From the IMG/VR virus record IMGVR_UViG_3300049484_000153, positions 1 through 45,183 of that record: DNA of 45,183 nt; one strand, written 5' to 3'. Origin of the DNA: a virus. Made by a program: the position numbers and the translations under genes. The notes under the pieces were generated by a model, which did no database searches, was not told the DNA's origin, and saw only the letters and a program-made list of their open reading frames with translations. Shown piece by piece: positions 4,783-42,385 of the stretch; position 1 is the stretch's first letter, and each line of letters begins with the position of its first letter.

Positions 4783-4819
4783 TATCTCGTAGGGCCGCGC
4801 TTCGAGCACGCCCGGACCA

Positions 4820-4903: not shown

Positions 4904-4918
4904 TATGAAAGGGACGAG

Positions 4919-5095
4919 ATGCCTCAAAAAGAGATGGGAGTCATTCCAGGCTCTCCGCTGGCCAAGTTGTTAGCCCGTCTCGAACGTCACGACCGCAGAC
5001 TCCTTCTTGCCGCTGTTCAGGCTGCACCTGGACCGCGGCGAGAGAAGCTTCAACGCGAGATCAGGAAGCGGCTTTTTGAGTTGGGCATCGAGTGA
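4919..5095 (+). CDS. Small basic helical protein upstream of the carbohydrate cassette
   Basis: A 58-residue gene with a GAAAGGGACGAG ribosome-binding region before its ATG and a stop overlapping the following GTG. The sequence is rich in Arg/Leu (for example LAKLLARLERHDRRLLLAAV) and should form one or two amphipathic helices. It is the first gene of the operon with the glycan-modifying enzymes. Function unknown. Confidence 0.65.
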   Translation: MPQKEMGVIPGSPLAKLLARLERHDRRLLLAAVQAAPGPRREKLQREIRKRLFELGIE

Positions 5096-6057: not shown

Positions 6058-6716
6058 AGACATTCTGGGATCAGAGTCATGACGGAAGCAACTTCGGTGA
6101 TGCCCTGAATGTGGAAGTGTTTCGCAGACTCGCCGGCATCGAACTCGAATGGAGTGAACCAGAAGACGCTGACCTGTTTGGCATTGGGTCCATCGCAGAA
6201 GCTATCCCCAAAGGCTTTCCGGGTATCGTGTTGGGGACAGGCAAGATGTTTGAGGAAAGTGTCATCGATCTCAGTTCAGCTCGAGTGCTAGCGCTGCGTG
6301 GACCCCTCACGGGGCAAAGCGATCTTTACGCTGATCTCGGTCTCCTCGCTTCTGACCTGACACAAACCGTCTCGCGCGATGTCGCCGTTGGATGGCTACC
6401 GCACTATGTCGATGAACGTCTCTACTATGGTGAGCGGATCGACATCCTTGCTGGAGTCGACTCAGTCATCGCTGCCGTTGCACGATGTAAGAGACTTGTC
6501 TCGTCATCATTGCACGGTCTCATCCTTGCCGACGCTCTCGGCATCGAGAACCTCTGGGAACCGCATCACGGTGTCCTCGGGAAGGGGTTCAAGTTCCGGG
6601 ACTATGCCAGTTCCTATGGCGAGACGATCACACCAGGAGTCTGGCGACTCGCTGACCGAGAACAAGTCGTCACGAAGCAACAAGCACTTCGATCCGCATT
6701 GGAGACATTGACATGA
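6048..6716 (+). CDS. Polysaccharide pyruvyl transferase-like protein
   Basis: A 222-residue protein with the family hallmarks: NFGDALN (15-21), GTGK and LRGPLT (83-88), a middle strand ADLGLLASDL (95-104), and SSSLHGLILADALGI (152-166), equivalent to the conserved LHG...ALGIP segment. Family members transfer pyruvate from phosphoenolpyruvate to a sugar, forming a ketal that adds negative charge to cell-wall polymers or exopolysaccharides (CsaB type). It is shorter than most cellular relatives. I use the ATG at 6048, 10 bases after GGAGGT; an ATG at 6054 overlapping the upstream stop is an alternative. It may decorate a virion glycan or the host surface. Confidence 0.75.
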   Translation: MVMKTFWDQSHDGSNFGDALNVEVFRRLAGIELEWSEPEDADLFGIGSIAEAIPKGFPGIVLGTGKMFEESVIDLSSARVLALRGPLTGQSDLYADLGLLASDLTQTVSRDVAVGWLPHYVDERLYYGERIDILAGVDSVIAAVARCKRLVSSSLHGLILADALGIENLWEPHHGVLGKGFKFRDYASSYGETITPGVWRLADREQVVTKQQALRSALETLT

Positions 6717-8245: not shown

Positions 8246-8289
8246 AACATCTCGTGGACAATCGCTGCGTCGCTGGCTAGAATAGACCT
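8243..8289 (+). promoter_or_regulatory. Sigma70-like phage promoter, copy 2
   Basis: TGAAACATCTCG, then TGGACA at 8255-8260, a 17-base spacer and TAGAAT at 8278-8283, followed by AGACCTA. It is nearly identical to the copy at 2891, including the upstream element. It begins within the stop codon of the glycosyltransferase gene and reads into the gene at 8328. Confidence 0.88.
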
Positions 8290-8327
8290 AAGGCGATCTG
8301 CCTGGATCACATGAAAGGGAAACTTCG

Positions 8328-8648
8328 GTGGCATATCACGGTTCGGCGGTCCTCCCGGTAGGATCATCTCTGAACCCCGCGTACCCGCAGACCGCGGAGT
8401 ACTACGCCGATGATCTCGTAGTCTACGTGATGTGGAAGACGAGCGATCAACGTACCCGCCCCACCCGCGTCCTCACGTCATACGGCGCACTCTCTGGGTG
8501 GACGATCAACTCGGTCCATGAGCTCTACCACGATCAGACAGGCGCCCAGATGGGCTCCTACAAAGTGGTTGGCGTCAAGGACTTCAAGTCGGGTGAGTCC
8601 ACGGGAATGATCCCGAACATCGCCATCAAGCACGCAGTCTTCAAGTAG
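8328..8648 (+). CDS. Hypothetical protein behind promoter 2
   Basis: A 106-residue protein starting at a GTG about 9 bases after GAAAGGGAAA. It is rich in Tyr, Thr and Val with alternating strands, consistent with a small beta fold. As the first gene after the 8243 promoter it is probably well expressed. I recognise no family; a host-takeover or virion role is open. Confidence 0.65.
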   Translation: MAYHGSAVLPVGSSLNPAYPQTAEYYADDLVVYVMWKTSDQRTRPTRVLTSYGALSGWTINSVHELYHDQTGAQMGSYKVVGVKDFKSGESTGMIPNIAIKHAVFK

Positions 8649-8657
8649 GAGGTCTCG

Positions 8658-8918
8658 ATGGTCGCAAAGCAAAACCGCCACGTGTCAACCGAGTCCGCTG
8701 CGGCCTCGCCGCTTGCGTGCCATCTCCGGCGCCAGGCACCTGTTGGTTCGCTCTTCACCACCGATGTTGATCGCATCGCAACTGCGATGAGTTACAACAC
8801 AGCCAACCGCAATCAAGTCGTGATCGCAATGCTCAAAGAACTCAAGGACATGAGCGTGATAGAGTACATCGCAGAGAAGGGGCGCGGCGCCACCATCCTT
8901 GTGAGGGTACTGGTTTAG
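8658..8918 (+). CDS. Small winged-helix-like DNA-binding candidate
   Basis: An 86-residue protein with a strong ribosome-binding site, TAGGAGG, 5 bases before the ATG. Residues about 30-86 read as a winged helix: helix TTDVDRIATAMS, a recognition-like helix NRNQVVIAMLKELKDMSVI, then a two-strand wing ending in TILVRVLV. It may regulate transcription of the phage modules; no repressor family can be named. Confidence 0.6.
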   Translation: MVAKQNRHVSTESAAASPLACHLRRQAPVGSLFTTDVDRIATAMSYNTANRNQVVIAMLKELKDMSVIEYIAEKGRGATILVRVLV

Positions 8919-8920
8919 AG

Positions 8921-9178
8921 ATGGCCTCCATCAAAAAGCGGGTCTGGCTCAAGGATCAGAAGCGGGGGTACTCCGGTTCTGATCTTCATATGACAACGGG
9001 CGCCGTTGACTATGAACAGGCCGACCCTGCGTGGTCGTGCAACCGCAAGAAGGCGTACTCGGATGAGAAGTTCGCCTCGCGGGTAGCTCGCCAGATGTAT
9101 GCCGAACGAGGCGCGCTCGTTGTAGCATATGCATGCCGTCACTGTGGTCACTACCACATTGGTCGAGCGCCGAGCTGA
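8921..9178 (+). CDS. Zinc-binding hypothetical protein (CxxCGxYHIGR)
   Basis: An 85-residue protein ending in ACRHCGHYHIGRAPS: C72-x2-C75 with H77 and H79, plus C40 further upstream. Short phage proteins with a YxCxxCGxWH-type tail are common and poorly understood; they probably bind zinc and nucleic acid. The stop overlaps the next start (TGATG). Confidence 0.65.
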   Translation: MASIKKRVWLKDQKRGYSGSDLHMTTGAVDYEQADPAWSCNRKKAYSDEKFASRVARQMYAERGALVVAYACRHCGHYHIGRAPS

Positions 9179-9807
9179 TGGACATTTGCCCCATCTGCGG
9201 ACGTGAGTTCCGCACTCGGGGCTTAGGTCGACATCGTGGGGCGAAGACATCAAAGTGCCCTTACACCGAGGCCGAACGCGCCATGATGGACGAACATTGG
9301 GCCGAAGTCAGAAGAGCTTCAGCAATCCAATGGAGGCGCGATAACCCTGAACGGGCTACGGCGAATGATAAGCTTCACACCGCTGTCCGCAAGAAGCGAC
9401 GGCAACGGCGACGGAAGAACCGGGTCTGGCGGAGAGCGAACCCTGGTTACTACACCGCTTACCGTCAAGCTAATCTCGAAGCACGTCGCGCATCTGAACG
9501 CGCATGGAAAGCTGCGAACCCTGATCGTGTCCGTGAGCAGAAGCGACGGTGGACTAAGTCTCGTGTTCGTTCATCAACAGCATCCGAACCACTACTTCCG
9601 CTCTTCCCAGACCTCGTGAGCGGTACTGTCTATTCATTCTGGGATGAGGAGTTGAGTATGGATCTCAGACAAGAGGCATTCCTCGCTGAGCTCGAGGGAA
9701 AGGATGCCAAAGCCCAGTGTCGGAAGTACCGATACCGTGAACGGGAGTGGTTCCGTAACACCACCGCACTATTCGAGGAGACCAATGACGCTTACGAAGT
9801 CGAGTGA
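9178..9807 (+). CDS. Zinc-finger protein with basic NP-repeat region
   Basis: A 209-residue protein starting at TGATG. The N-terminus is a finger, C4-x2-C7 with H19 and C27. Residues about 55-125 hold basic helical repeats carrying an NP-x-x signature (RRDNPERA, RRANPGYY, WKAANPDRV), like DNA-binding repeats in some homing endonuclease-associated proteins. The C-terminal third is acidic-mixed with no nuclease motif seen. It probably binds DNA or RNA; an HNH catalytic core is absent, so it may be a degenerate endonuclease accessory or a regulator. It overlaps the next gene by 23 bases. Confidence 0.6.
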   Translation: MDICPICGREFRTRGLGRHRGAKTSKCPYTEAERAMMDEHWAEVRRASAIQWRRDNPERATANDKLHTAVRKKRRQRRRKNRVWRRANPGYYTAYRQANLEARRASERAWKAANPDRVREQKRRWTKSRVRSSTASEPLLPLFPDLVSGTVYSFWDEELSMDLRQEAFLAELEGKDAKAQCRKYRYREREWFRNTTALFEETNDAYEVE

Positions 9808-10618
9808 CCTAACACTCCGCCCACCACGGATAACCTTCGAACGGTTCCATGAGATCCTCACGGATCGCAAGTCGCCTGCTGTGACGGAGGCTGAAGACAT
9901 CTGGGGTCTTCTTGTCGATGGTGGTGTGGATCCGAGCTTCGCTCTCGGCCAGTACCATGTCGAGTCTCTAATGGGAAAGTCCGGTCACGCGACCGTTACC
10001 CATTCATGGGGCAACATGCTCTGGGACGCGAACCTCACACCGACCCGGGCGAAGTACTCTCCCGGCAATGGGTACACTTACGCCTTGTACCCAAACTGGA
10101 CCGAAGGTGTGCGTGACTACGTCAAGTACACCAAGCACTACTCAACGACCGTTGTCCGCAAGTACAGCGACACGTTCTGCGACACCATCGCTGAACATTG
10201 CGAGCGCTGGCAGGGCGACGCCCAACCAGCGGATCACAAGAGTTCCTATGTCCAGATCATCCTCCACGAGATGAATGACATCTACGAGTATGTCCCTGGT
10301 GTCTACGTTCCTGCAGGAGACCTCATGATCGCAATCGACGCAAGCAAAGTCACGACCAACAAGCGCTACCCCGTCAAGAACGGGACGCCTCTCTATCGAG
10401 GCACGGACGGCGATGTCCTCAAGCTCGCATCCTTCGCGAGTCGACTTCCTGACGGATCACTCGGTGGCGTGTGTCGCTTCCTCGGGCCTGTCGGGGCGAC
10501 TGCCTCATGGACCGATCCGCTCTGGGCCTGGGGCGCAGTGATCGTCAATGTCTCCGGCATGGGAGAGCGCGTGGTCTACATCAAGACCCCGATCAAGACC
10601 CGCGTCACGACGGTCTAA
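9785..10618 (+). CDS. Glucosaminidase-like cell-wall hydrolase
   Basis: A 277-residue protein. The core (about 30-145) resembles the mannosyl-glycoprotein endo-beta-N-acetylglucosaminidase family: GGVDPSFALGQYHVESLMGKSG with E60 as likely general acid, then WGNMLW, and an aromatic YALYPNWTEGVRDYVKY segment equivalent to the substrate groove. The C-terminal 80 residues form a separate beta-rich region, perhaps cell-wall binding. It would cut glycan strands of peptidoglycan. Its place far from the lysis cassette at 30.5-32 kb suggests a virion-associated entry enzyme or a second lysin. I chose the ATG at 9785, overlapping the previous gene by 23 bases. Confidence 0.68.
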   Translation: MTLTKSSDLTLRPPRITFERFHEILTDRKSPAVTEAEDIWGLLVDGGVDPSFALGQYHVESLMGKSGHATVTHSWGNMLWDANLTPTRAKYSPGNGYTYALYPNWTEGVRDYVKYTKHYSTTVVRKYSDTFCDTIAEHCERWQGDAQPADHKSSYVQIILHEMNDIYEYVPGVYVPAGDLMIAIDASKVTTNKRYPVKNGTPLYRGTDGDVLKLASFASRLPDGSLGGVCRFLGPVGATASWTDPLWAWGAVIVNVSGMGERVVYIKTPIKTRVTTV

Positions 10619-10771: not shown

Positions 10772-12370
10772 GTGAAAGCAGTCGATGTGATGGGGTTCGC
10801 CGGCTCGATGGCCGCTGGAGTCGACCAGGCCGGGTTCGATGTCGTCGCGAAGCGTGAACCATCGGCGTTCAAGGGCTTCGGCGTCGAGTCGATGACCTAT
10901 AACATGCCGTGGGTCGAGGCGCAGGTCGCGCCATGGGGTCAGTGGGATCTTCCCGTCGAGAAGGACATTGAACTCGTCTATGGGTGTCCTCCCTGCTCGG
11001 GTTTCTCGCAACTCTCCTCGGTCAACACAAAGGTCTACGAGCACACGGGAACGACATACCGCGGTGCGGACGCCGAGATCAACGAATGCATGGAGCATCT
11101 GATCGACTACGCCGCCCGGATCGCGCCTCGCATCGTCATCATGGAGAGCGTTGGCGCGGCGTTCAAACTCGGTCGTGAGTGGTTCGAGCAGTTGTGGCAG
11201 AAGCTTCGCGACGAGACGGGCCTGGACTACAAGCTCGCTCACGTCAACATGAATGCAGCCTGGGTTGGCGGCGATGTGATCCGTCCTCGCTACTTCATGG
11301 TAGCGCATCTCGATCCGTTCGGTGTCGGCCTTGACTTTGTCAAGCCCCGACCGTTCCTTGAGGTCGTCAGTGATCTCGGCCCCGAAGATCTGGATGACAC
11401 AGACTGGGGTCACATGACCCGGGGTACTCGCTCAACTGAGCGGATCACCCAGACCATCGAGTGGCTGCGCAAGCAAGATCGCGACTGGGAGCCCGGGACT
11501 CGCCTCCCGCAGAACGCCGCGGATATCGGCCTCGAGCCGCCCGACTTCTGGCTCAAGGAGAAGCCGTCGAAGAACAAGCGCGGCTATCGTGAAGATGTCT
11601 ACTCACACTGGTACTCCTCGGACCCGTTCAGTCCCGTTCGTTGGCGTGGTGACAAGCCCTTCGGTGTCATCGTCGCGGCCTCACTCGACCGGGCTATCCA
11701 CCCAACGGAACCTCGGCCACTGACCTTCCGGGAAGCCGCCCGGTTCATGTCACTTCCCGACACGTGGTCGATGCGGGTGCTCGTCGAGAAGAACCGACCA
11801 GACGAACTCGGCAAAGCGGTCCCAACGGCCTCAGCCAAGTGGATTGCTCACTGGGCCAAGATGAGCATCGAAGGTACGCCGGGCGAGTACGCCGGCGAAG
11901 ACACCGACAACCCCGACATCCGGGTCTTCAATGTCCAGAAGGCTCCGCAGATCGAAGCGCTTTGGGACAACAAGGTCCCGGGCGCGGCGTACCATCCCGA
12001 GAGCATCACGTCCGATCCGAACCCAGACATCTGGATGGTCGACCGCAAGCAACGTCCTCCAGACTGGTGGCAGCGCGAAGACGAGCTTGGGATCTTCAAC
12101 GCACCTATCAAGCAGCCTCGGACTGTTGTCCAGAGGAGCGCCAGAGCCTCTCAGACGGCCACAAAGCCAAAAGTTGCGGGAACTATCGCCCGTATCCCTC
12201 CCACTGAGGTGGCAGCCCTTCTAGAGACACTGGGTCTGACAAAGCAGGAGGCCGCATCGAAGCTTGGCGTATCAATCGCCCGTGTCAACGAACTAACAAC
12301 CAACACCCGTCCAGGATCATGGCTCAACGCTGAGCGATGGGATCAAGTCCAGGTGGCGCTTCGTGCCTGA
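10772..12370 (+). CDS. C5-cytosine DNA methyltransferase
   Basis: A 532-residue protein with the C5-MTase motif order: motif I FAGSMAAG (9-16) binding S-adenosylmethionine, motif IV GCPPCSGFSQL (71-81) with catalytic C75, motif VI-like MES (124-126), motif VIII-like RPRYFMVA (171-178), and a C-terminal motif IX/X region (FREAARFMSLPDTW, then GKAVPTASAKW). Residues about 480-530 add a helix-turn-helix (LTKQEAASKLGVSIARVNEL). It would methylate cytosine at C5 in a specific sequence, protecting phage DNA from restriction or marking sites for further modification. GTG start with TAGGAGG 4 bases upstream. The terminal HTH could autoregulate through the AGTGAAAGC repeats. Confidence 0.88.
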   Translation: MKAVDVMGFAGSMAAGVDQAGFDVVAKREPSAFKGFGVESMTYNMPWVEAQVAPWGQWDLPVEKDIELVYGCPPCSGFSQLSSVNTKVYEHTGTTYRGADAEINECMEHLIDYAARIAPRIVIMESVGAAFKLGREWFEQLWQKLRDETGLDYKLAHVNMNAAWVGGDVIRPRYFMVAHLDPFGVGLDFVKPRPFLEVVSDLGPEDLDDTDWGHMTRGTRSTERITQTIEWLRKQDRDWEPGTRLPQNAADIGLEPPDFWLKEKPSKNKRGYREDVYSHWYSSDPFSPVRWRGDKPFGVIVAASLDRAIHPTEPRPLTFREAARFMSLPDTWSMRVLVEKNRPDELGKAVPTASAKWIAHWAKMSIEGTPGEYAGEDTDNPDIRVFNVQKAPQIEALWDNKVPGAAYHPESITSDPNPDIWMVDRKQRPPDWWQREDELGIFNAPIKQPRTVVQRSARASQTATKPKVAGTIARIPPTEVAALLETLGLTKQEAASKLGVSIARVNELTTNTRPGSWLNAERWDQVQVALRA

Positions 12371-32030: not shown

Positions 32031-32055
32031 GACGGTCCTAACCACCAACCACTCT

Positions 32056-32079
32056 CGGCCTGGATCTAAGTCCAGGCCG
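32056..32079 (+). terminator. Hairpin after the lysis cassette
   Basis: CGGCCTGGA (32056-32064) and TCCAGGCCG (32071-32079) form a perfect 9-bp stem with a 6-base loop. No T tract follows, so termination may be partial or need help; RNA stabilisation is an alternative. Confidence 0.55.
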
Positions 32080-32098
32080 ATGGTGTGTATAAAGCAGA

Positions 32099-32122
32099 GA
32101 ATATTCAGTCGAATATTCAGTC
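32099..32122 (+). promoter_or_regulatory. Perfect 12-bp tandem repeat, possible operator
   Basis: GAATATTCAGTC occurs twice, head to tail, in an A+T-rich pocket of an otherwise G+C-rich genome. A TATATA box follows at 32130 and the MoxR gene starts 80 bases later. Each unit contains the palindrome GAATATTC, so a dimeric regulator could bind twice. Confidence 0.55.
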
Positions 32123-32202: not shown

Positions 32203-33516
32203 ATGGCTCAACTTTGCGGCTGGAAGACCCCCGCAACCGGACTTCGTGAGTGCACCAACGAACGTTGGAAGGTCGGCGCGACATACTGCGCCATCCACGA
32301 GGATGAGTATCGTGCAGCACGTCGCGGCAAGCCCAGTACACCCCGCGCTCCTCGCGTCGTGGTGAACCTGGCGGATCAGAACATTCCCGAGGGACGCACC
32401 CACGCCTACGTCGTGTCCAAGGACCTCCGCGCTCTTTGGGACGCGGCGATGGTCGGAGCGACAAAGCGGCCCGCAGGCAACTTCCTCTTCATCGGTCCTC
32501 CCGGATCGGGCAAGACGGACGGTGCGGAGTCCCTCGCCATCGAGGCTGGGCTCGACTTCACGAAGGTCGATGCCGCTTCGATGACCGACCCCGAGGCGTG
32601 GTTCGGGACCCGCGAGATCGTGGTCCAGGACGGTGTCGCCGTCACGGACTACAAGCCATCGATCTTCGTGGAGTCCATCCAGAAGCCGGGCATCACCTTC
32701 ATCGATGAGATCAACCGATGCCGCGATGAGGGTCGCAACATCATCATCCCGATCATCGACCACACGCGGGCCGTGATGAACCCGCTTACGGGCGACATCA
32801 TCACCCGCCACCCACAGAACTTCATCATCATGGCGGGCAACGTTGGACTCGCCTTCACGGGTACATCGTCCATCGACCCCGCCTTCTGGACTCGCGCCAC
32901 CGTCGTTGAGTTCGAGTACACCGATGAGGCATCCGAACGGTCCATCGTGGAGACCGCGACTGGATGCGATGCCGAGTCGGCATACGTCCTCGTACGCTTT
33001 GCCGTCGACTCCCGGGCTCGCGCCGCCAACGATGACGAGTTCCCCGCGATCTCGACTCGCGAGTTGATCGCCGCCGGTGAGCACATCGCCGATGGGCTCT
33101 CACGGGACCTCGCGGTCAAGTTCAACATCCTCAATCACGCCTCCGGTGAGGGTGGCAACGCCTCGCTACGCAACGAGCTCAACAACATCTGGACCGGTGT
33201 TCGAGCGGCGAAGTTGCCCGAGGCGAACCCCGGCCCAAAAGTCCCAACGCCTGACCAGAGTGGTTGGGTCTGTCCAGTCCATCATGTCGTGAAGACGGTC
33301 CCCGCCGGGGTGTCGACAAAGACAGGTCGCGCATATACCGCCTTCAAGGCGTGCAGCGCTCTAGGTTGCCCGAACACCGAGTCCAACGGGACAGCATGGA
33401 ACGCCGCCGCCATCAAGACAACCTCAGGAGCGGGGCTCCACTGCCAAGACTGCGGCCAGATCAACCCGGTCGGACGCACAACGATCTGCGTCTCCTGCGG
33501 GTCATCTCTTACCTGA
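32203..33516 (+). CDS. MoxR/CobS-type AAA+ ATPase with zinc modules
   Basis: A 437-residue AAA+ protein. Walker A is GPPGSGKT (98-105), Walker B FIDEIN (166-171); the later PQNFIIMAGN and a sensor-like Arg-rich region fit the MoxR/CobS clade. The N-terminus has C5, C17, C29 and H32, and the C-terminus has CPVHH, C-x5-C, and CQDCG...CVSCG, making at least two zinc sites that are unusual for the clade. MoxR proteins work with vWA partners to remodel or insert metal into target proteins; the partner is the next gene. GAGGAG lies before the ATG. It follows the 32099 repeat region. Confidence 0.82.
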   Translation: MAQLCGWKTPATGLRECTNERWKVGATYCAIHEDEYRAARRGKPSTPRAPRVVVNLADQNIPEGRTHAYVVSKDLRALWDAAMVGATKRPAGNFLFIGPPGSGKTDGAESLAIEAGLDFTKVDAASMTDPEAWFGTREIVVQDGVAVTDYKPSIFVESIQKPGITFIDEINRCRDEGRNIIIPIIDHTRAVMNPLTGDIITRHPQNFIIMAGNVGLAFTGTSSIDPAFWTRATVVEFEYTDEASERSIVETATGCDAESAYVLVRFAVDSRARAANDDEFPAISTRELIAAGEHIADGLSRDLAVKFNILNHASGEGGNASLRNELNNIWTGVRAAKLPEANPGPKVPTPDQSGWVCPVHHVVKTVPAGVSTKTGRAYTAFKACSALGCPNTESNGTAWNAAAIKTTSGAGLHCQDCGQINPVGRTTICVSCGSSLT

Positions 33517-33560
33517 AACATGGTATGGACAATCGCTGGTCGCCAGGCGAGAATAGACTT
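33514..33560 (+). promoter_or_regulatory. Sigma70-like phage promoter, copy 3
   Basis: TGAAACAT, then TGGACA at 33526-33531, a 17-base spacer, and GAGAAT at 33549-33554, followed by AGACTT. The -10 box differs from copies 1 and 2 by T to G at position 1, so it should be weaker. It starts inside the MoxR stop codon and reads into the vWA gene. Confidence 0.82.
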
Positions 33561-33595
33561 GGCGATCACGCCTTAGCACCAAGGAGGACATTCCA

Positions 33596-35551
33596 GTGAC
33601 TCTCGCGGATTACGACTTTGACCGCGGCATCTTCGATGACGACGATGACTTCGAGAGCGATGATCTCGAAGACATCGAGGCATCCGACCACTCATACCTG
33701 AAGGGTATGTGGAGCGGGTTCCGCGCAACATCCAACGCCACATTCGATGAAGGCGTTGGTTCTCAACTTGCGCAGGACACCATCCTCGCTCACGGGATGG
33801 TCCAGTCATTCGTCAACGCCTTCGCCCGTGACGGGTACTACGTGGTCACATTCGATCCGCACACCTCGACCGCTGGCACCGACATGCATGCCAAGCACGT
33901 GGCGATCACGCCGGCTCCCATCGCCGATAAGGATCTCACCGCCGAAGAGGCGGGCCTGATCCTCACGGGACTCGCCACTCACGAGATCTCTCATCCGCGC
34001 TATGGGCGCCGAACCGCTCAAGCAGTCGACGCGGCCTTCCCGGGCAATGGCACCGCATCGCGACTCTCGAACCTCCTCGATGACATCCGCATCGAGAAGC
34101 GGTTCATCGCCGACTACCCAGGCTACGCGGGCATCTTCGAACCCACACTCAACTACGTTGGTGCGGCCAGTCTCAAGCGGGACAAGATCCTGGGACTCCG
34201 CAAGCCATCGCTCAACGCTCCCGTCAACCTCGCCATCGGCGCCACGCGATATCCCTCCTTCAATGACTGGTCGGACCCCGCGATCAAGGCGGAGTTCGAC
34301 TGGTGGAATGATTGGGCCGTCCGCGGGTCGCGCGAGGATGCTCCGATCCGCCACGTTGGCTTCATCCGCGAAGCCCTCCAGCACATCGCCGCTCTCAAGG
34401 CACAGCAGAAGAAGGCGCAATCAACCACCGCACCCTCCGCGTCGTCCTCTTCGTCAGGCACGGGTGACAGCGACCCGAGCCCGTCAACACCCTCAGGCGG
34501 CGAGAAGTCAGAAGCCGCACCGCTCGACGATGACACGCTCAACCAGATCACGATGCCCGCTAACTACTATGATCCCGAAGACACGAAGACCGAGGACGAC
34601 ACGAACCCAATGGATGGGTGCTCGGGTTCGGCAGCAGTAGACAAGGCCGCGGCCGAAGGCGATACCACCTATAAGGAGATCGCCGCCCTCAAGAATGAGG
34701 CCGAGAACATCGTTCAGAATGCCCGCAACCAAGAGAGCGATGGACACGGCAACAAGGTCGATGTCAGCAAGTCGCTCCGCGGGATCACGGGTGGTCTTCC
34801 GAAAGCACGCCCATCAGCGGTTGCGGCGAAGTACATTCGCAACGCGATCATGCAGTCCAGGACGGGACACACCGACCACGCGCCGTTCAAGCGTCATGGC
34901 CGCCTCGATCAGCGCGGCATCGCACGCATTGCGAAGGGCGACTACCGGGTCTTCGAGAAGCGGACCGCTCCGTCCGTCGGACGCTTCAACATCTGGGTGA
35001 TGGTCGATGCATCATCCTCCATGGAATGGGGTGGTTGGAGTGAGCAGGCGCCGCTTCAAAATGCAGCCGCCGTTGGTCATGCGATGGCCGTTGCTTCGCA
35101 GACCATCCCGACCGTCAGGATGAGCCTCTGGGCATGGTCCTCGCCATTCCGTTCTGGCGCATACGCCGATGGCGGTGCGGCTCTCGCCTGGAAGACCGGG
35201 ATGAAGACCGACCAGGCACTCCGCCTCTCGACCGTCAAGACCGGCGGGACACCCGACGCGGTCGTCATGGGATGGGCCGGTCGAGCCATCCTCAAGGAGA
35301 CCGTTGGCGAGGAGACACCCGTCATCATCTTCATCAGTGACGGTGCGGGATACGGCGAGATGAATGCCCGCATCGAAGAAGCCCGTAAGGCCGGCGTCGA
35401 GGTCTACGGTGTCTCCTTCTCGGGAGGCATGGATGATGTCGACAGTCGACGGTTTGGGAAGAACAACTACGTTCCGTGGAAGGGGTCCATCGAGGAAACG
35501 GCACGACCACTCGCCACGCTCTTCGCCCGCATCACGGGTATGGCGCGATGA
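33596..35551 (+). CDS. Zincin-like and vWA-domain protein (CobT/MoxR partner)
   Basis: A 651-residue protein. The N-terminus is very acidic (DDDDDFESDDLEDIE). Residues about 110-175 form a zincin-like segment: HEISH (129-133), followed by LLDDIRIEKRF, where a third ligand could sit. A low-complexity Ser/Pro/Asp linker spans about 275-380. The C-terminal vWA domain has the MIDAS D471-x-S-x-S and later VIIFISDGAGYG. Such proteins pair with MoxR/CobS ATPases as metal-chelatase or chaperone complexes. Expressed from the 33514 promoter. Whether it chelates metal, cuts protein or remodels a virion or replication complex is open. Confidence 0.8.
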   Translation: MTLADYDFDRGIFDDDDDFESDDLEDIEASDHSYLKGMWSGFRATSNATFDEGVGSQLAQDTILAHGMVQSFVNAFARDGYYVVTFDPHTSTAGTDMHAKHVAITPAPIADKDLTAEEAGLILTGLATHEISHPRYGRRTAQAVDAAFPGNGTASRLSNLLDDIRIEKRFIADYPGYAGIFEPTLNYVGAASLKRDKILGLRKPSLNAPVNLAIGATRYPSFNDWSDPAIKAEFDWWNDWAVRGSREDAPIRHVGFIREALQHIAALKAQQKKAQSTTAPSASSSSSGTGDSDPSPSTPSGGEKSEAAPLDDDTLNQITMPANYYDPEDTKTEDDTNPMDGCSGSAAVDKAAAEGDTTYKEIAALKNEAENIVQNARNQESDGHGNKVDVSKSLRGITGGLPKARPSAVAAKYIRNAIMQSRTGHTDHAPFKRHGRLDQRGIARIAKGDYRVFEKRTAPSVGRFNIWVMVDASSSMEWGGWSEQAPLQNAAAVGHAMAVASQTIPTVRMSLWAWSSPFRSGAYADGGAALAWKTGMKTDQALRLSTVKTGGTPDAVVMGWAGRAILKETVGEETPVIIFISDGAGYGEMNARIEEARKAGVEVYGVSFSGGMDDVDSRRFGKNNYVPWKGSIEETARPLATLFARITGMAR

Positions 35552-35568: not shown

Positions 35569-36174
35569 ATGGACCAGTCTCAGATCGCCTCAGACGCTCT
35601 CAGAGGTCACACTTTGAGCGAGGTACGCGATACGCCAGTCACTAGTAAGGTGGGTCGCTCCGGTCGTCAGAGAGGCACAGAGGCCAGGCGCGTACCGCAT
35701 GACGAGATCGTCGCTATCGCGCAGGCCATCGTGCTCCCGGAAGGCGTCACGGACCTGCGTATGACGGTCCATCACGATCATGGAGACAAGCTCCCCAACG
35801 GCAACTGGAGCGGCCTGGGCGGAAAGACCATGTTCGGTCCAGTGTTCGTCATCGGTGGACGACTCGAGAGTGAGCCCATCCACCTCTTCGAAAGTCAGAA
35901 AGATGCCATCGCTCTTCATGCGATGCTCACAGGAGATGAAGGAGACCTATGGCACAGGAAACAACGCCGGCTCGAAGCGCTTGCTGCGGCGGAGATTGCG
36001 GAGGCGGAGGCAGTTGCGATCTTGAAGGAGAATGCAAAGACTGTTCGCCGAGCGAACGAGGGTGGCGGTGGCTCGAGTCGACCGTCGCGCTCCAGCGCGA
36101 AGCGTACGGCTTCGAGTGGACCGGGACTGAGTCGGCGGGAGAGGTTGCGAGCAGCCTCAAAGACAACCTCCTAG
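35569..36174 (+). CDS. Hypothetical protein overlapping the dUTPase-like gene
   Basis: A 201-residue protein from an ATG preceded by AGGAGGTAGCCCA; an upstream ATG at 35548 overlapping the vWA stop is possible. The first two thirds look like a small alpha/beta domain with a basic N-terminus; the end has an Ala/Glu helix then a Ser/Arg-rich tail. The last 226 bases also encode the N-terminal part of the next gene in another frame. No family recognised. Confidence 0.6.
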   Translation: MDQSQIASDALRGHTLSEVRDTPVTSKVGRSGRQRGTEARRVPHDEIVAIAQAIVLPEGVTDLRMTVHHDHGDKLPNGNWSGLGGKTMFGPVFVIGGRLESEPIHLFESQKDAIALHAMLTGDEGDLWHRKQRRLEALAAAEIAEAEAVAILKENAKTVRRANEGGGGSSRPSRSSAKRTASSGPGLSRRERLRAASKTTS

Positions 36175-36425
36175 CGGCGATGGTCGAACTCTCGGGCGAG
36201 GTACCCCGCGAGTTCCACTGGAAGTACTGGAGTCACACCGAACCATTCGTCAATCGGATGCGAGTCCTTGATGAACTCGTCGATGTCCTCCACTTCATCG
36301 CCAACATGCTCATCGCCATCGGCGTTGACGACACGGAACTCGAGATCGCCTACAAGTACAAGCAACGGATCAACCGCGAGCGACAGGGTGCGAAGTATGT
36401 CGCCGCACAAGGAAAGGACGTATGA
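35949..36425 (+). CDS. All-alpha dUTPase/dCTPase-like NTP pyrophosphohydrolase
   Basis: A 158-residue protein with a very good AAGGAG site. After a Cys-rich N-terminus (C12, C13, C17, C23, C29, C32), the dimeric dUTPase-type domain begins at about residue 42: LQREAYGF, then the metal motif E80-x3-E84, FHWKYW (89-94), and DELVDVLHF (E109, D112). Members, like the related T4 gp56 dCTPase-dUTPase, split dNTPs to dNMP and pyrophosphate. In this cassette it would supply dCMP or dUMP and lower dCTP. Its first 226 bases overlap the preceding gene in another frame. Confidence 0.75.
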   Translation: MAQETTPARSACCGGDCGGGGSCDLEGECKDCSPSERGWRWLESTVALQREAYGFEWTGTESAGEVASSLKDNLLAAMVELSGEVPREFHWKYWSHTEPFVNRMRVLDELVDVLHFIANMLIAIGVDDTELEIAYKYKQRINRERQGAKYVAAQGKDV

Positions 36426-36838
36426 CCAGACTCTCGTGGGATCAGTACGCTCTCAACCTCGCGCACGCCGCGGCGACACGCAGTGAGGATCCGTACCATC
36501 AGGTCGGAGTGGCTCTGATGCGCCCTGACCACACCGTAGCAGCGGTCGGATACAACGGAGCGCCGTCGGGCGTCGACATCGACTGGTCAGATCGTGACGC
36601 TCGCCGAGCGCAGGTCATCCATGCGGAAGCGAACGCCCTCCGCTATGTTCGTCCCGGCGAGGTCGGGACGCTCGTGACTACGATGATGCCGTGCGCTAAC
36701 TGCGTGCTTCTGATGTCGTCTTACGGCATCCGTCGAGTCGTCTACACCGGTGAACTGGACCCTGCGGTCTACGACACCACATTCATCCGCGAACTCGCGA
36801 ACGAGTGCGGCATCGAGATCGTCAAGGAGCGCGCATGA
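36422..36838 (+). CDS. dCMP deaminase
   Basis: A 138-residue zinc deaminase. HAE (67-69) holds the zinc ligand and catalytic Glu; PCANC (90-94) holds the other two zinc Cys; YNGAPSG (44-50) is the typical substrate-loop motif. It turns dCMP into dUMP, feeding thymidylate synthesis. Its start and stop both overlap neighbours, so it is co-expressed with the dUTPase-like and hydroxymethylase genes. The combination resembles the T4 pyrimidine route. Confidence 0.9.
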   Translation: MTRLSWDQYALNLAHAAATRSEDPYHQVGVALMRPDHTVAAVGYNGAPSGVDIDWSDRDARRAQVIHAEANALRYVRPGEVGTLVTTMMPCANCVLLMSSYGIRRVVYTGELDPAVYDTTFIRELANECGIEIVKERA

Positions 36839-37611
36839 AAGTCTACCTCGCTGGACCGATGTCCGGCATCAAAAGTTTCAACATCCCCGCGTTCCAGGCC
36901 GCCACCAAAGTCCTTCGAGACAACGGCCACATCGTGATCTCGCCAGTCGAACTCGACGGAGCTCAAGACCGGGCCATTCTTCTACAGAGTGAACACGGTG
37001 ATCACAAAGATCTTCCGCGTCCCTACGAAGAGTACTTGAGCAACGATCACATCACGATCCGTGGTACTCCCGATCTCGATGCCATCGTCTGTCTCCCTGG
37101 GTGGGAGAACTCCTTCGGCGCACTCTCCGAAGTCGATCTCGCCGCGAGCCTCGGCATCCCGTCCTACCCGTACGACTCGGTCTTCGGGATGCGTATCCCG
37201 GACAAGGATGATCTCTACGATGCCGATGGGAAGTTCATCACTCACGCCGACAATCCTCTCCGTCAGCGCACCGTTACCGGGGGCGTGAAGGACAACCGCG
37301 GGAAGTTGCCCGTCGACTTGATCCCGTACGAGGCGCTTCGTGGCGCCGCCGAGGTGCTCGCCTACGGAGCGATCAAGTACAAGCCAAACAACTGGCGTCT
37401 CGGCCTCAAGTGGATGGAGACCTGGTCATCCCTTCAGCGTCACCTATGGGCGTGGAAGGAAGGCGAGGACCTCGACCCCGAGACGGGCAAGTCGCACATC
37501 GACCACGCAATGTGCCAGATGCTCTTCCTGGCGACATACGTCCACGACCCGAACATGGCGCAGTTCGATGATCGGTGGATCAACAGCGATCACAACGAGG
37601 CGAAGGCATGA
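36835..37611 (+). CDS. DUF4406-DUF5664 fusion (nucleotide-metabolism enzyme)
   Basis: A 258-residue protein from ATGA. Residues 1-115 match DUF4406, a nucleoside deoxyribosyltransferase-like fold: KVYLAGPMSG (2-11), DLDAIVCLPGWENSFGALSE and a following Ala/Leu-rich helix. Residues about 150-240 match DUF5664, related to dATP/dGTP diphosphohydrolases of MazG type: KLPVDLIPYEALRGAAEVL, GAIKYKPNNWR, RHLWAWKEGEDLDPETGK. The fusion could process nucleotides for DNA modification, for example removing an unwanted dNTP or producing a modified precursor. No biochemical activity can be fixed from sequence. Confidence 0.75.
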   Translation: MKVYLAGPMSGIKSFNIPAFQAATKVLRDNGHIVISPVELDGAQDRAILLQSEHGDHKDLPRPYEEYLSNDHITIRGTPDLDAIVCLPGWENSFGALSEVDLAASLGIPSYPYDSVFGMRIPDKDDLYDADGKFITHADNPLRQRTVTGGVKDNRGKLPVDLIPYEALRGAAEVLAYGAIKYKPNNWRLGLKWMETWSSLQRHLWAWKEGEDLDPETGKSHIDHAMCQMLFLATYVHDPNMAQFDDRWINSDHNEAKA

Positions 37612-38429
37612 GCGCCGGGTACTACGACACATTCAGTGAAGCGTGGCTCGAGGAGATCGACGAGACCCGGTACAATGGGGAGGTGTCATCGCCTCGCGGT
37701 ATGAAGACCCGCGAACAGCGGTGGCGTCAGATCGTGGTGCACGAACCACTCTCGTTCCCTGTCGCTGTCAAGGGTCGCCAGTTCCGAGACGTGATCGGTG
37801 TCCTCGAGGGACTCTCGCTCGTTGGTCAGGTAAGCATCCCAGAGACATTCACATCGCGGGTCGCGAAGTTCGGCGACTTCCTCGACGATGGTGTCTTCCA
37901 TGGGGCGTATGCGACTCGCGCACACGGCGCCATCGGCGAAGTTGTCAATCTCCTCACACGTGATCCTGACTCTCGTCAGGCGGTCATCTCGGTCTTCGAC
38001 TCGAGCCGTGATCTCAACCGTATCAAGAGCGACATCCCCTGCACCATCGCACTCCACTTCATGAAGCGTGGCAAGGAACTTGAGATGAACGCCACGATGC
38101 GATCAAACGACATGTGGCTCGGGACGCCGTATGACTTCACGCAGTTCGCTATCCTTCAGGCAACCATCGCGCAGGCACTCAAACTGAAGCCCGGACTCTA
38201 TGTCCATTCGGCCGGGTCGCTTCATCTCTATGAGCGCGACTTCACGAAGGTTGACCTCATCGACTATGACGATGAAGCGAACACTGATCGGATGGACTTC
38301 CCCTTGTGGGGTGCCGATGATATCGGTGAGATCTCGTCACGAGCAAGGGCGCTGCTCCTCAACCCAAAGGACTTCCAACCAACCACGATGTTCGAGCGCT
38401 GGGCGCAAACCCACATGATGCTTGGATGA
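37608..38429 (+). CDS. dCMP hydroxymethylase-like thymidylate synthase homologue
   Basis: A 273-residue thymidylate-synthase-fold enzyme. Catalytic C145 lies in DIPCT, phosphate-binding residues in MRSND (164-168), and the C-terminal site in AGSLHLYERDF. Where thymidylate synthase has Asn for dUMP (PFN), this protein has Asp176 (PYDF), the residue used by T4 dCMP hydroxymethylase to choose dCMP. MRSND and GSLH-Y also match the T4 enzyme more closely than classical ThyA. It would make 5-hydroxymethyl-dCMP from methylene-tetrahydrofolate, or possibly 5-methyl-dCMP. It is the last gene of the nucleotide operon and overlaps the helicase start. Confidence 0.8.
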   Translation: MSAGYYDTFSEAWLEEIDETRYNGEVSSPRGMKTREQRWRQIVVHEPLSFPVAVKGRQFRDVIGVLEGLSLVGQVSIPETFTSRVAKFGDFLDDGVFHGAYATRAHGAIGEVVNLLTRDPDSRQAVISVFDSSRDLNRIKSDIPCTIALHFMKRGKELEMNATMRSNDMWLGTPYDFTQFAILQATIAQALKLKPGLYVHSAGSLHLYERDFTKVDLIDYDDEANTDRMDFPLWGADDIGEISSRARALLLNPKDFQPTTMFERWAQTHMMLG

Positions 38430-39940
38430 GCGCCATTGTCGTTGGTGATGAGATCGTCATCACCTCCCCGCACGGGAAGGAACTCAAGCAGCTTGGTGCT
38501 CGCTTGAACGCGGGGTCTTGGACGCTCCCTGCGACGAGGTTGAACGCCCAGCTGGTGAACGACCTCGCGCTCGGACTTCCGACGCTCTCAGTGGATCTGA
38601 GCGCGCCAGGGAACGTCGATGACGAGCGCCTCTACGGATACCAGCGCGACGCAGCAGCGCGACTGGCCACGGCCCCGCATGGACTCGTCCTTGTGGCGGC
38701 ACCCGGGTTGGGTAAGACCGCGATGGCTATCGCTGCTGCGGACGTGGCCGTACCCGATGACCGTGTCGTCATCATCGCGCCAGCGTCGCTCCTCGACACC
38801 TGGGCTCGCGAGATCCAGAAGTGGGCTCGAGTCCCGGGAAGCACTTACATCATGCGAGGTAAGGTTGATCACGACCTCGCGAGTGAAGCACGGTGGATCA
38901 TCACATCGTGGGACAAGGCAGTTCGAGAGCAAGCGACCTGGGGCAAGGGGTGGCCACTATGGATCTTGGACGAGAGTGTCCTGGCCAAATCTCGTGGCTC
39001 GAAGAGGTTCAAGACACTCACGAAACTCCGCCGCGACGTTCAACGCTTCTGGCTCCTGAGTGGGTCGCCAACCACTCGCTACTCGGACGATCTCTGGGCG
39101 CAACTCCACCTCCTGTGGCCGAAGGCCTTCTCGAGCTACTGGCGCTTCGCCGAACGGTACACCGTCGTCGAGCAGACACCGTGGGCTCGGGTCGTAACTG
39201 GCGACCGGGTTGGCCGGTCAGCCGCCGTCGACAACTCGGATCTAGTCCTCGTCATCAATGAAGAAGATGCTGGTCTCGATCTTCCCGACTACCTCTTCGA
39301 ACCGCCCCTGGCGGTGGCACTCGAAGGACCTCAACTCAAAGCCTACAAAGAAATGGCGAAGACCTTCATCGCGGAGTTGGAGAACGGGACCGAGGTCATC
39401 GCTGCCAATGAAGCATCGAAGCTTCTCCGACTCCAACAGATAGCCTCATACTTCGATGGTCACTCCGCCAAGCGAGCTGCTCTTCTCGAGGTAATCGGCC
39501 GCTATGAGCCGCCGTATCTCATTTGGACACATTGGAAGGACACATCGCGCGACCTCGAAGCATACCTGACCGGCGCTGGCATCAACGCTATCTCAGTCAC
39601 CGGTGAGACACCGGATAGAGACACGATCATCGAGGACTACAAAGCCGGGAACACCGAATGTTTGATCCTCTCACTCGGTGTCGGGAAGTTCGGTCACACC
39701 CTCACTAACACACGCACAGTCTTTGGATTGGACCGGAACTTCTCCGCCGACGACTATTACCAGTCGATGCATCGTGTCCGCCGCATCGGCCTTACTCACC
39801 GCCCAGTGGTCGTGCCCATCGTTGCCGTAGGAACGGTCGATGAACTCACTGTGGGTGACAACCTCGAAGCCAAACTAGGGGGTATCTCGCGAATGACTAG
39901 ATCAGACCTCGCATCACTCTTGAAGGGGCTCGGCCGGTGA
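38426..39940 (+). CDS. SNF2-type DEAD-like helicase
   Basis: A 504-residue superfamily 2 helicase. Q-like YGYQRDAAARL precedes motif I APGLGKT; motif II is LDES (a variant of DEAH), motif III LSGSPTTR, and motif VI QSMHRVRRIG. The N-terminal 50 residues resemble an HARP-like or beta-rich extension. SNF2-type phage helicases may remodel forks or recombination intermediates. It heads the replication/recombination block. Overlaps both neighbours by 4 bases. Confidence 0.85.
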   Translation: MSAIVVGDEIVITSPHGKELKQLGARLNAGSWTLPATRLNAQLVNDLALGLPTLSVDLSAPGNVDDERLYGYQRDAAARLATAPHGLVLVAAPGLGKTAMAIAAADVAVPDDRVVIIAPASLLDTWAREIQKWARVPGSTYIMRGKVDHDLASEARWIITSWDKAVREQATWGKGWPLWILDESVLAKSRGSKRFKTLTKLRRDVQRFWLLSGSPTTRYSDDLWAQLHLLWPKAFSSYWRFAERYTVVEQTPWARVVTGDRVGRSAAVDNSDLVLVINEEDAGLDLPDYLFEPPLAVALEGPQLKAYKEMAKTFIAELENGTEVIAANEASKLLRLQQIASYFDGHSAKRAALLEVIGRYEPPYLIWTHWKDTSRDLEAYLTGAGINAISVTGETPDRDTIIEDYKAGNTECLILSLGVGKFGHTLTNTRTVFGLDRNFSADDYYQSMHRVRRIGLTHRPVVVPIVAVGTVDELTVGDNLEAKLGGISRMTRSDLASLLKGLGR

Positions 39941-40434
39941 AAGCGCCACGCACACTCAGTCGAGATCTTCAAGCAAAGACACAAGTGTGGCTTTGCCTCG
40001 ACCCCGGTATCACGACCGGGATGGTGGTCATTGATGCCGACGGCGAACTTCGCGCAACGACCGTCTGGGGAACAGCCGAGGTGAAGGACTCGCTCGACAC
40101 AATGATCCGCGCGCTTCACCTGTCTGGGTACAAGATCATTGTTGTGATTGAGAAGATGCCTCCAGGTTCCTACGGTCAACTCGCCTCTAAGCTCGAGGCC
40201 GTTCGACGAGACATCTCGGTCGTTGTGGAAGAGACCTATGAACTTCCCGTTGTGTACATCGCACCTGGTGAGTGGAAGCCGTCACGCATGGCGAAGACCG
40301 TCAACATCAAGGGATGGAGGTTCAACGGAACGCCTATGATGACACATCAGAAGGACGCCTTCAGGATGGGGAGGTACTACCTCGACAAGGCACAACGATC
40401 TGCAGTTGACTCATGGGTAGGAAAGACCCACTGA
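39937..40434 (+). CDS. RuvC-like Holliday junction resolvase
   Basis: A 165-residue RNase H-fold nuclease with a GTG start. The acidic residues fit RuvC: D22 (LCLDPGITTG), E72 (VVIEKMPPGS), and H137-x2-D140 (THQKDAFRMG). It would resolve branched recombination or replication structures before packaging, alongside endonuclease VII and the Cas4-like nuclease. Confidence 0.78.
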   Translation: MKAPRTLSRDLQAKTQVWLCLDPGITTGMVVIDADGELRATTVWGTAEVKDSLDTMIRALHLSGYKIIVVIEKMPPGSYGQLASKLEAVRRDISVVVEETYELPVVYIAPGEWKPSRMAKTVNIKGWRFNGTPMMTHQKDAFRMGRYYLDKAQRSAVDSWVGKTH

Positions 40435-41528
40435 TGCAAGATCCAACCGGCCTTGAACCCTTCACACCAGTAACTATTCAGTCTACGTCCGCGACTGAAC
40501 GTGCGGGCTTTCGCAAGTGTCGTCGCCAGTGGTTCCTCACGACGGTCCACCGTCTCGACTCGAACCAGGGCAATGTCAACTTCTTCCTCGGCAACATCTA
40601 CCACGCCGCGCTCGCGGCGTACTACACCGCGCAGTACAACAACGAGGACATCGATGTCCGCGAGATCTTGGCGCTCGACACCTACCAAATGGAGTACGAC
40701 TCGCAAGTTGAGACACTCGTTGCCGATCTTGGGTCCATGTGGACCTACATCGAGCCGACCTTCCGCGAGGCCGGTGTACTTGGCCTCGAGATGCTTCAGA
40801 ACTATCTCGAACGTGAACGCCTTGAACCTCTGTTCGATGAAGTGATCGCCGTCGAGTTTCGGGTCAATGTCCCGATCACGAACATCGCTAGTGTCGAGGT
40901 TGGTATCCTTTCTGTCCAGGCTGATGTGGTTGGTCGGAAGAATGGAGAGCTCGCAGTCGCTGATCACAAGACGGCCTCGCGAGTCATGCCATCGAGTCAT
41001 CTCGACATCGATGACCAACTCACCGCCGAGGTCTACTCGTGGTGGAAGTTCTCGGGCGAGTTCCCCGAGAAGGCGATCTACAATGTCTCCTACAAGAAGG
41101 CCGTTGGTCCGCCCGCTCAGATCAAGGGCTCGAAGGCCAAGCCCATCAAACTCTCAAAGGCGAAGGGCCAGGCAACGACAGCAGCCCTCTACCGGGCCGA
41201 GATCGAAGCTCTAGGCCTCGACATCGGAGACTATGTCGACATCCTCACGACGCTCGAGGAACGGGCTGGCTCCGAGGACGATATGCTCTTCCGTCGTGAG
41301 GCGGTGTTCCGTACTCCCGGTCAGATGGAGTCCTTCGAACGGGACCTTTACTACGAGTGGACAGACATGCAGATGGTGGCTGCCGAGCCCGAGCGAGCGT
41401 ACCCGAACCCAACTTCGATGAACTGTTCGAACTGCCCGGTGCGAGCGATTTGCACCACGCTTCAGGACAACGGCGACGCCGAGTCCATCATCAAGGCTGG
41501 TTACACAATCGCTGATCCAAGACGTTGA
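40434..41528 (+). CDS. Cas4-like PD-(D/E)XK exonuclease with Fe-S Cys
   Basis: A 364-residue nuclease from TGATG; the upstream ATG at 40413 is less likely. C29 (FRKCRRQWFL), H57 and an Asp in QADVVGR lead to the catalytic core LAVADHKTAS (PD-(D/E)xK, motif III as DHK), and a C-terminal C-x2-C-x5-C (MNCSNCPVRAIC) completes the four-Cys Fe-S site typical of Cas4 and AddB-like nucleases. It probably makes single-stranded ends for the adjacent Sak4-like annealing system. No CRISPR array is present. Confidence 0.85.
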   Translation: MQDPTGLEPFTPVTIQSTSATERAGFRKCRRQWFLTTVHRLDSNQGNVNFFLGNIYHAALAAYYTAQYNNEDIDVREILALDTYQMEYDSQVETLVADLGSMWTYIEPTFREAGVLGLEMLQNYLERERLEPLFDEVIAVEFRVNVPITNIASVEVGILSVQADVVGRKNGELAVADHKTASRVMPSSHLDIDDQLTAEVYSWWKFSGEFPEKAIYNVSYKKAVGPPAQIKGSKAKPIKLSKAKGQATTAALYRAEIEALGLDIGDYVDILTTLEERAGSEDDMLFRREAVFRTPGQMESFERDLYYEWTDMQMVAAEPERAYPNPTSMNCSNCPVRAICTTLQDNGDAESIIKAGYTIADPRR

Positions 41529-41564
41529 AGTCATGGTAAGATGATTGACCCTGAAAGGAGAGTC

Positions 41565-41684
41565 GTGCCTAACATCAATTGGCCTGGCGTGATCGCCGTG
41601 GCGCTTATGGCGTTTGCAGCAATAGGCGTCATGGTTGTCTCATGGGCCATCGTGGACTTCGTCATCCGTCTCTTCGGATGGTAA
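41565..41684 (+). CDS. Single-pass membrane microprotein
   Basis: A 39-residue gene with a strong GAAAGGAG site before a GTG. It has one hydrophobic helix (VIAVALMAFAAIGVMVVSWAIV) and a short C-terminus FVIRLFGW. Its stop (TAA) overlaps the next start region. A membrane anchor or inhibitor of a host process is possible; the position between Cas4-like and Sak4-like genes suggests a role linked to DNA, but that is speculation. Confidence 0.62.
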   Translation: MPNINWPGVIAVALMAFAAIGVMVVSWAIVDFVIRLFGW

Positions 41685-42385
41685 GCGCCCGTAAGCCCGA
41701 GGACGCGAACTTCGCGAAGGTCCTCATCCATTCACCCGCGGGTCATGGTAAGACCCATCTACTTGGGACTGCGCAAGACGACGAGCGCACCTTCCCGATG
41801 GCCTTCCTGAACTTCGAAGGCGGCGAACAGACGTTGTCGGGACTCGACATCGACGTGTTCGACATCCGCGACTCGAAGGACTACGACGACGTGTACCGCG
41901 ACCTCAAGTCGGGGAAGACGGGACACAAGTCCGTCGGCGTGGACTCCATCACGGAGACACAGATCAGTTCCTTGCTCGAGATCCTCGACAAGGACACCGT
42001 CAAGCGAGCTGATCCCGATCAGCTCGCCCAGCAGGATTGGGGCATCGTCCTGATCCGCATGCGCCGCATCGTCAGGCAGTATGTCAAGATGCTGCCGATG
42101 CACGTGTTCATGACGGCGCTTAGTAAGGATGACGTGGTTCCTCGCGTTGGTAGTGTCAAGGCTCCTCAAGTGCAGGGGTCCTTCGCAACGGAACTTCCCG
42201 GCATCCTAGATGTGGTGGCATACCTCGCGTTGGAGGAAGACAAGGAAGGCACAGTCGAGCGCCTTCTGCTTCTTCAGGGATACCCAAAGTTCTCGGTCAA
42301 AGCACGAACCCCGTGGGGTGTGCAAGTGCCGACAGAGATCGTTGATCCCACCATCACCAAGTTGCTCGACGCACTCGGTTTCTAG
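41678..42385 (+). CDS. Sak4-like RecA-fold ATPase (single-strand annealing)
   Basis: A 235-residue P-loop protein. The Walker A is SPAGHGKTH (19-27), and SVGVDSITETQ provides the Walker B. It resembles the phage AAA/Sak4 family. These proteins act with a phage single-strand-binding protein in homologous recombination, and the following gene is a good candidate for that partner. It overlaps the membrane microprotein gene by 7 bases. Confidence 0.75.
   Translation: MVSARKPEDANFAKVLIHSPAGHGKTHLLGTAQDDERTFPMAFLNFEGGEQTLSGLDIDVFDIRDSKDYDDVYRDLKSGKTGHKSVGVDSITETQISSLLEILDKDTVKRADPDQLAQQDWGIVLIRMRRIVRQYVKMLPMHVFMTALSKDDVVPRVGSVKAPQVQGSFATELPGILDVVAYLALEEDKEGTVERLLLLQGYPKFSVKARTPWGVQVPTEIVDPTITKLLDALGF

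Follow-up and report, generated by a model that had tools for sequence, protein, structure and literature searches.

What does a phage do with a MoxR-type ATPase whose neighboring gene encodes a VWA protein carrying a metallopeptidase-like motif? This question is raised by the IMG/VR virus record IMGVR_UViG_3300049484_000153, positions 1 to 45,183, a siphovirus-type genome encoding terminase, portal, major head protein and tape measure; the whole 45,183-base stretch that was analyzed is called the window below. Two open reading frames (ORFs) with verified coordinates lie in tandem and are designated S (32203-33516, 437 amino acids) and T (33596-35551, 651 amino acids, GTG start). They are separated by 79 bp, and Shine-Dalgarno-like sequences precede both the ATG of S at 32203 (gaggag) and the GTG of T at 33596 (aaggagg). 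Two published proposals for such pairs conflict, one invoking a virion chaperone-protease and the other a CobST hijack, and both fit poorly here. Our tentative answer, to which we assign a probability of about 45%, is that S and T together remodel proteins in an ATP-driven, metal-dependent manner, probably as a protease, in the service of DNA metabolism or recombination in mobile elements.

Domains and conserved metal sites of S and T

The features on which this reading depends are the following.

32203..33516, + strand: S, a MoxR/CbbQ-NorQ-type AAA+ ATPase of 437 amino acids (ORF; Pfam, PHROG and PDB matches)
32479..33141, + strand: AAA+ module of S, residues 93-313 (Pfam ranges; invariance in seven relatives)
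AAA+ motifs of S: Walker A GPPGSGKT, Walker B FIDE, sensor-1 N213, arginine finger R231, sensor-2 R286
33596..35551, + strand: T, a zincin - acidic linker - finger/VWA protein of 651 amino acids with GTG start (ORF, alignment, predicted structures)
33758..34423, + strand: predicted minigluzincin-like domain of T, approximately residues 55-276 (isolated-domain model and Foldseek)
33980..33994, + strand: HEISH, residues 129-133, two putative metal ligands and a catalytic-type Glu (invariant in 21 homologues)
34082..34096, + strand: DIRIE, residues 163-167, putative third-ligand helix, with D163 invariant and E167 either Glu or Asp
34424..34723, + strand: acidic low-confidence linker of T, approximately residues 277-376 (predicted local distance difference test, pLDDT, mostly <50)
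34730..35548, + strand: finger and VWA domain of T, residues 379-651 (Z 20.2 to the NorD VWA for residues 381-650)
35006..35020, + strand: metal-ion-dependent adhesion site (MIDAS) DASSS, residues 471-475, completed by T552 and D582 (alignments)

The ATPase is readily classified. S matches the Pfam families AAA_5 (E 1.1e-12) and CbbQ_C (7.4e-8), both above the Pfam cut-off, as well as phrog_249, 'porphyrin biosynthesis' (1.7e-20), and its closest PDB sequences are midasin, CbbQ and NorQ. Walker A, Walker B, sensor 1, the arginine finger and sensor 2 are invariant across seven relatives, and the S-T pairing is retained in L002 to L006, L011, L015 and L016.

Homologues of T were drawn from IMG/VR, actinophages, one Bacteroides phage and plasmids, and were compared in a main alignment of 21 homologues (14-54% identity to T) and a second alignment of 28 sequences. 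It should be noted that many are only 14-19% identical and have a long gapped linker, which makes the deep branches of a tree unreliable. A tblastn search of the phage collection with the window T found no relative, relatives being reached through S and IMG/VR, and single-protein and profile scans of genome contigs found no chromosomal relative. Besides the start, the columns invariant in the 21 homologues (H129, E130, H133, D163, D471, S473, S475, D582 and G583) all belong to the two predicted metal sites. The second alignment agrees with one exception, and the presence of HExxH at the corresponding position in 27 of its 28 members indicates that the motif is not a chance occurrence. The exception is an Acinetobacter phage-plasmid protein in which Q and K replace H129 and H133 and E replaces D163, with the MIDAS intact, whereas the protein of a sister plasmid (L042), 46% identical to it, retains HEVAH and EDARIE. 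Joint change of H129, H133 and D163 in one lineage is what would be predicted for a single metal site with those ligands, and the invariance of E130 fits catalysis better than metal storage. The exceptional protein is encoded at 4928-6850 of L037 (Acinetobacter baumannii NZ_CP043456.1) and carries the segments QEVAK and EEARVE. In another record (L014, 7959-10259) the T homologue is divided over two ORFs, one for the zincin part and one for the VWA part, as reported for cobT of HHTV-2.

Structures were predicted for full-length T and for its N-terminal domain folded alone. The isolated-domain model (pLDDT 84, predicted template modeling score 0.80) has the order a1-b1-b2-b3-a2(HExxH)-a3(DxxxE), which is the minigluzincin topology. 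In a Foldseek search of PDB its top seven matches are abylysin, selecase and jannalysin, all of them minigluzincins (probability 0.72-1.00), and the next, unrelated match falls to 0.11; a second structural comparison list is likewise rich in zinc metallopeptidases. The first-pass annotation had placed HEISH in a zincin fold, and these models favor that claim. Since the individual match scores are weak, we regard the support for a minigluzincin-like fold as good but not conclusive. Abylysin, jannalysin and selecase share with the T model the helix, three strands, HExxH helix and third-ligand helix, but they are stand-alone proteins of ~110 amino acids, whereas in T the domain is joined to a MoxR-type VWA, and its candidate third ligand is, unlike theirs, an invariant Asp. 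DUF2201 (PF13203), another HExxH-VWA family, has no Pfam match to S or T.

For the C-terminal part, the Pfam VWA score is weak (15.4 bits vs a cut-off of 23.8), while the fold search clearly gives VWA, and this part of the full-length model is confident. The best PDB match of residues 381-650 is the VWA domain of NorD with its finger (Foldseek E 2.9e-8), superposed on NorD residues 355-645 with Z 20.2 and a root mean square deviation of 3.0 over 213 aligned residues. T is therefore a VWA protein of the MoxR-partner kind and not integrin-like. The MIDAS motif DxSxS and D582 are invariant in the 21 homologues and T552 in seven, in agreement with the MIDAS-bearing VWA domain assigned to the partner at first pass. 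NorQ and NorD resemble S and T in comprising a MoxR ATPase and a VWA partner with finger, MIDAS and long flexible linker, but the N-terminal domain of pSymA NorD lacks the HExxH that T possesses. Pfam matches, motifs, fold matches and conservation together uphold the earlier description of a MoxR-type ATPase with a zincin-VWA partner.

Relationship to published pairs and to CobS/CobT

The pair type is already known. In jumbo phages, a MoxR ATPase has been described together with a VWA protein that bears a metallopeptidase domain at its N-terminus, and the two were proposed to act in virion assembly with proteolysis (Iyer et al. 2021, PMC7824862); S and T agree with that definition, being neighboring genes for a MoxR ATPase and for a VWA protein with such a domain. 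More than 100 actinophages are annotated with 'CobT-like' genes. The first pass thus implied more novelty than the 2021 description and the annotations in over 100 phages allow; S and T are a further member of a type that also occurs on conjugative plasmids beside DNA-recombination genes. Compared by description, the group 2.2 jumbo-phage pair (Iyer et al. 2021, ASV44729.1/ASV44728.2) has the same two-gene architecture; it differs from the window pair in that the latter lies in a 45-kb siphovirus-type genome, has lineage-specific zinc ribbons on the ATPase and stands in a DNA-metabolism context. The 'CobT-like cobalamin biosynthesis protein' and AAA-ATPase of Gordonia, Rhodococcus, Tsukamurella and Brevibacterium phages share the domain order of T and S, with HExxH, Dxxx[ED] and MIDAS in positions equivalent to those in T, but their CobT-like proteins are only 15-19% identical to it, and at least one gene separates S and T in several Gordonia phages.

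According to a second proposal, viral pairs of this kind are CobST, driving the CobN of the host, and cyanophage cobT has been 'mistakenly annotated as a peptidase' (Liu et al. 2021, PMC8651126). S scores 17.0 bits against the NCBIfam CobS model TIGR01650 (cut-off 558.55), and with the CobT model TIGR01651 T gives no match and its relative L003 12.9 bits (cut-off 759.05). CobN (PF02514) was not found in the window, the IncC plasmid or the Cantare and Reynauld records, although a host CobN is possible. Together with the highly conserved zincin site, the missed cut-offs and the lack of CobN in these records weigh against CobST. S and T are not orthologs of CobS and CobT, with which they share an AAA+ protein, a C-terminal VWA and distant sequence similarity. 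Common ancestry of the T family with CobT is nevertheless likely at a distance, because PF11775 (CobT_C) matches 12 of the 21 family members and PF06213 (CobT) five. Cellular CobT is not known to have an HExxH. The evidence supports a peptidase-type domain on T, as opposed to the view that this annotation is a mistake. No RavA/ViaA model or chain appears among the listed family and fold matches, no search aimed at them having been made. Members of the family occur in thousands of records of phages and plasmids, among them IncC resistance plasmids, and the names now attached to it (cobalamin biosynthesis, porphyrin biosynthesis, VWA protein) are probably misleading as to function.

Gene neighborhoods and the proposed role

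In the window, the pair is followed by one block of genes.

35949..42385, + strand: MazG-type pyrophosphatase, dCMP deaminase, nucleotide hydrolase, ThyA and SNF2 helicase
35949..42385, + strand, same block: Holliday-junction resolvase-like protein, PD-(D/E)XK exonuclease and Sak4-like annealing protein

The closest neighbors of the pair in other phages are also mostly nucleotide, replication and recombination genes. For example, the helicase, exonuclease and Sak4-like genes of the window recur downstream in L011, a YqaJ recombinase-type nuclease lies downstream in L003 and L004, thymidylate synthase, MazG and a dNMP kinase adjoin the pair in Cantare, and a DNA polymerase is near it in the Bacteroides phage. 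A further ORF after YqaJ in L003 and L004 had been taken by eye for RecT and was dropped, having no Pfam or PHROGs support. L034 encodes DnaB and a class I ribonucleotide reductase (RNR), and its S-T genes directly follow nrdB/nrdA. At 3535-10061 of that record, the pair stands between the class I RNR genes upstream and an rIIA-like gene downstream.

Conjugative plasmids of the MOBH type, IncC and IncT among them, carry the same pair. The plasmid survey covered ten backbones of the MoxR-DUF3150 type; they are not independent, and the counts that follow express an association rather than a statistical test. Nine of the ten (all but L041) have an annotated lambda-type or PD-(D/E)XK exonuclease upstream of S or T, six an annotated RecT or Bet, and nearly all DUF3150. 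On the IncC plasmid, the ATPase gene is upstream of ssb-bet-exo and T is downstream, with yfaE ~3 kb downstream of T. These operons share with the window the metal-site signature of T and a CobS-like (phrog_249) ATPase, but differ in having an extra DUF3150 partner and ssb-RecT/Bet-exonuclease directly upstream. The order ssb - RecT/Bet - exonuclease - MoxR - DUF3150 - zincin-VWA recurs on MOBH plasmids (L026-L030 and L038-L041). The ssb-bet-exo genes of SXT are an experimentally proven recombination module (PMC2786100; PMC3118119), and a literature search found no report tying MoxR/VWA genes to it. The plasmid operon provides a concrete candidate pathway for the pair.

In the mechanism we propose, S would form an ATPase hexamer into whose pore the VWA finger of T would dock, by analogy with NorQD, where the finger of NorD inserts into the pore of NorQ (PMC13036017, PMC9976466). 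The MIDAS of T would then grip a target that ATP-driven rotation strains, and the N-terminal minigluzincin, on its flexible acidic linker, would bind zinc and probably cut the strained target; since T has a zincin in place of the NorD N-terminal domain, strain could expose a cleavage site. The pair may belong to the early or middle genes, as a module for DNA metabolism and recombination on mobile elements. Its most likely target would then be a protein that is bound to DNA or takes part in replication or recombination, encoded by host or phage; a corrinoid or a component of the virion is less likely. A narrower version makes the pair a specialized partner of the single-strand-annealing recombination that the elements themselves encode: it would be an ATP-powered protease that clears or trims proteins on DNA ends or single-stranded DNA, found in both phages and MOBH plasmids, and the names CobST and virion chaperone would be wrong for it; taken by itself, this version is rather improbable. 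In eukaryotes, zincins of the SPRTN/Wss1 type clear or trim DNA-bound proteins. Several observations weigh against a protease of DNA metabolism or recombination. In the window, S-T comes directly after lysis-region genes and beyond the tail region; no single-strand annealing protein gene is close by in the Gordonia phages, the Bacteroides phage or the SSU5-like phage-plasmids; and the zincin matches, obtained with a predicted model, are individually weak, reaching at best E 0.065 and Z 6.0.

The position just noted, after the tail and lysis region, would suit a virion assembly chaperone and maturation protease that assembles or clips phage structural proteins, as published for the same architecture with the MoxR-vWA pair of Acidianus two-tailed virus as precedent (Iyer et al. 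2021, PMC7824862). However, conjugative IncC, IncT and other MOBH plasmids make no virions, so that virion assembly is improbable as a general role of the family, and the nucleotide, replication and recombination genes around the phage pairs also speak against it; we consider it unlikely for the window pair. Occurrence in lytic phages as well as on phage-plasmids and conjugative plasmids would be expected if T clipped a host defense or nuclease protein during host take-over, like mobile-element zincins such as ArdC, which is present in the fold list of the N-terminal domain. That match is weak (Z 4.9), most loci read have no defense or anti-defense gene beside the pair, and PADLOC gave no convincing match, leaving such a role rather improbable.

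Two further explanations center on metal cofactors. Because the closest fold is NorD, the pair might insert a metal cofactor in the manner of NorQD, the N-terminal domain serving non-proteolytic metal binding or delivery, for instance to a metalloenzyme of nucleotide metabolism; the S-T genes directly behind nrdB/nrdA in L034 and yfaE on the IncC plasmid are consistent with this. Yet pSymA NorD has no HExxH domain, no RNR is among the window ORFs scanned, and the invariant Glu of HExxH is better suited to catalysis than to storage, which makes metal insertion a distinctly unlikely function. Replacement of host CobS/CobT by the pair, driving cobalt insertion by host CobN and raising B12 to the benefit of the phage (Liu et al. 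2021, PMC8651126), agrees with the CobT_C and CobT family matches and with the names used in PHROG and record annotations. Besides the failed CobS and CobT tests and the lack of CobN in the records named above, it gives no role to the strictly conserved HExxH/D metal site, and the RNR paired with S-T in L034 is of class I, which is independent of B12. It is very improbable. A metal-dependent remodeller of DNA-metabolism proteins is the reading that we prefer.

Accessory and regulatory features

Additional features of the locus are the following.

32048..32088, + strand: stable terminator-like hairpin without U-run between a 115-amino-acid ORF and S (RNA fold)
32099..32122, + strand: two tandem copies of the 12-bp GAATATTCAGTC, each with the palindrome GAATATTC, operator-like, upstream of S
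32215..32298, + strand: N-terminal Cys/His cluster of S (C5, C17, C29, H32), a possible zinc finger
33271..33498, + strand: putative C-terminal zinc ribbons of S (C357-H360/C384-C389 and C414-C417/C429-C432)
33513..33558, + strand: promoter-like repeat copy 3 (TGGACA - 17 - GAGAAT) between S and T

The extra zinc sites ascribed to the ATPase in the first-pass annotation exist as Cys/His clusters, but they do not define the family. The form of the N-terminal cluster varies among relatives and is not conserved as in the window, and the C-terminal double ribbon is common only to L002 and L011, the two nearest relatives, L003 and L004 lacking it. Judging from these sequences, the clusters are lineage-specific accessory parts.

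The 115-amino-acid ORF preceding S is holin-like by position. The hairpin that follows has a folding energy of -27.4 kcal/mol (z -5.0 vs shuffles), and the 12-bp tandem repeat lies between it and S; the only two exact matches to GAATATTCAGTC in the window are those of the repeat, against 0.14 expected. The promoter-like TGGACA-N18-AGAATAGAC occurs three times (2903, 8255 and 33526) against 0.09 expected, and none of 100 shuffles reaches three. Both of the regulatory regions previously taken to suggest controlled ratios of the two proteins are therefore present, the repeat and promoter copy 3, but S and T overlap in L011 with no intergenic gap, so controlled ratios are not a property of the family, and the intergenic promoter is, like the zinc ribbons, specific to the lineage. 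In full, the three promoter-like copies have the form TGAAACAT-n-TGGACA-N18-AGAATAGAC and lie at 2890-2935, 8242-8287 and 33513-33558 of the window. Elsewhere, the window encodes a DNA methyltransferase (10772-12370) and a double galactosyl/glycosyltransferase (6713-8245).

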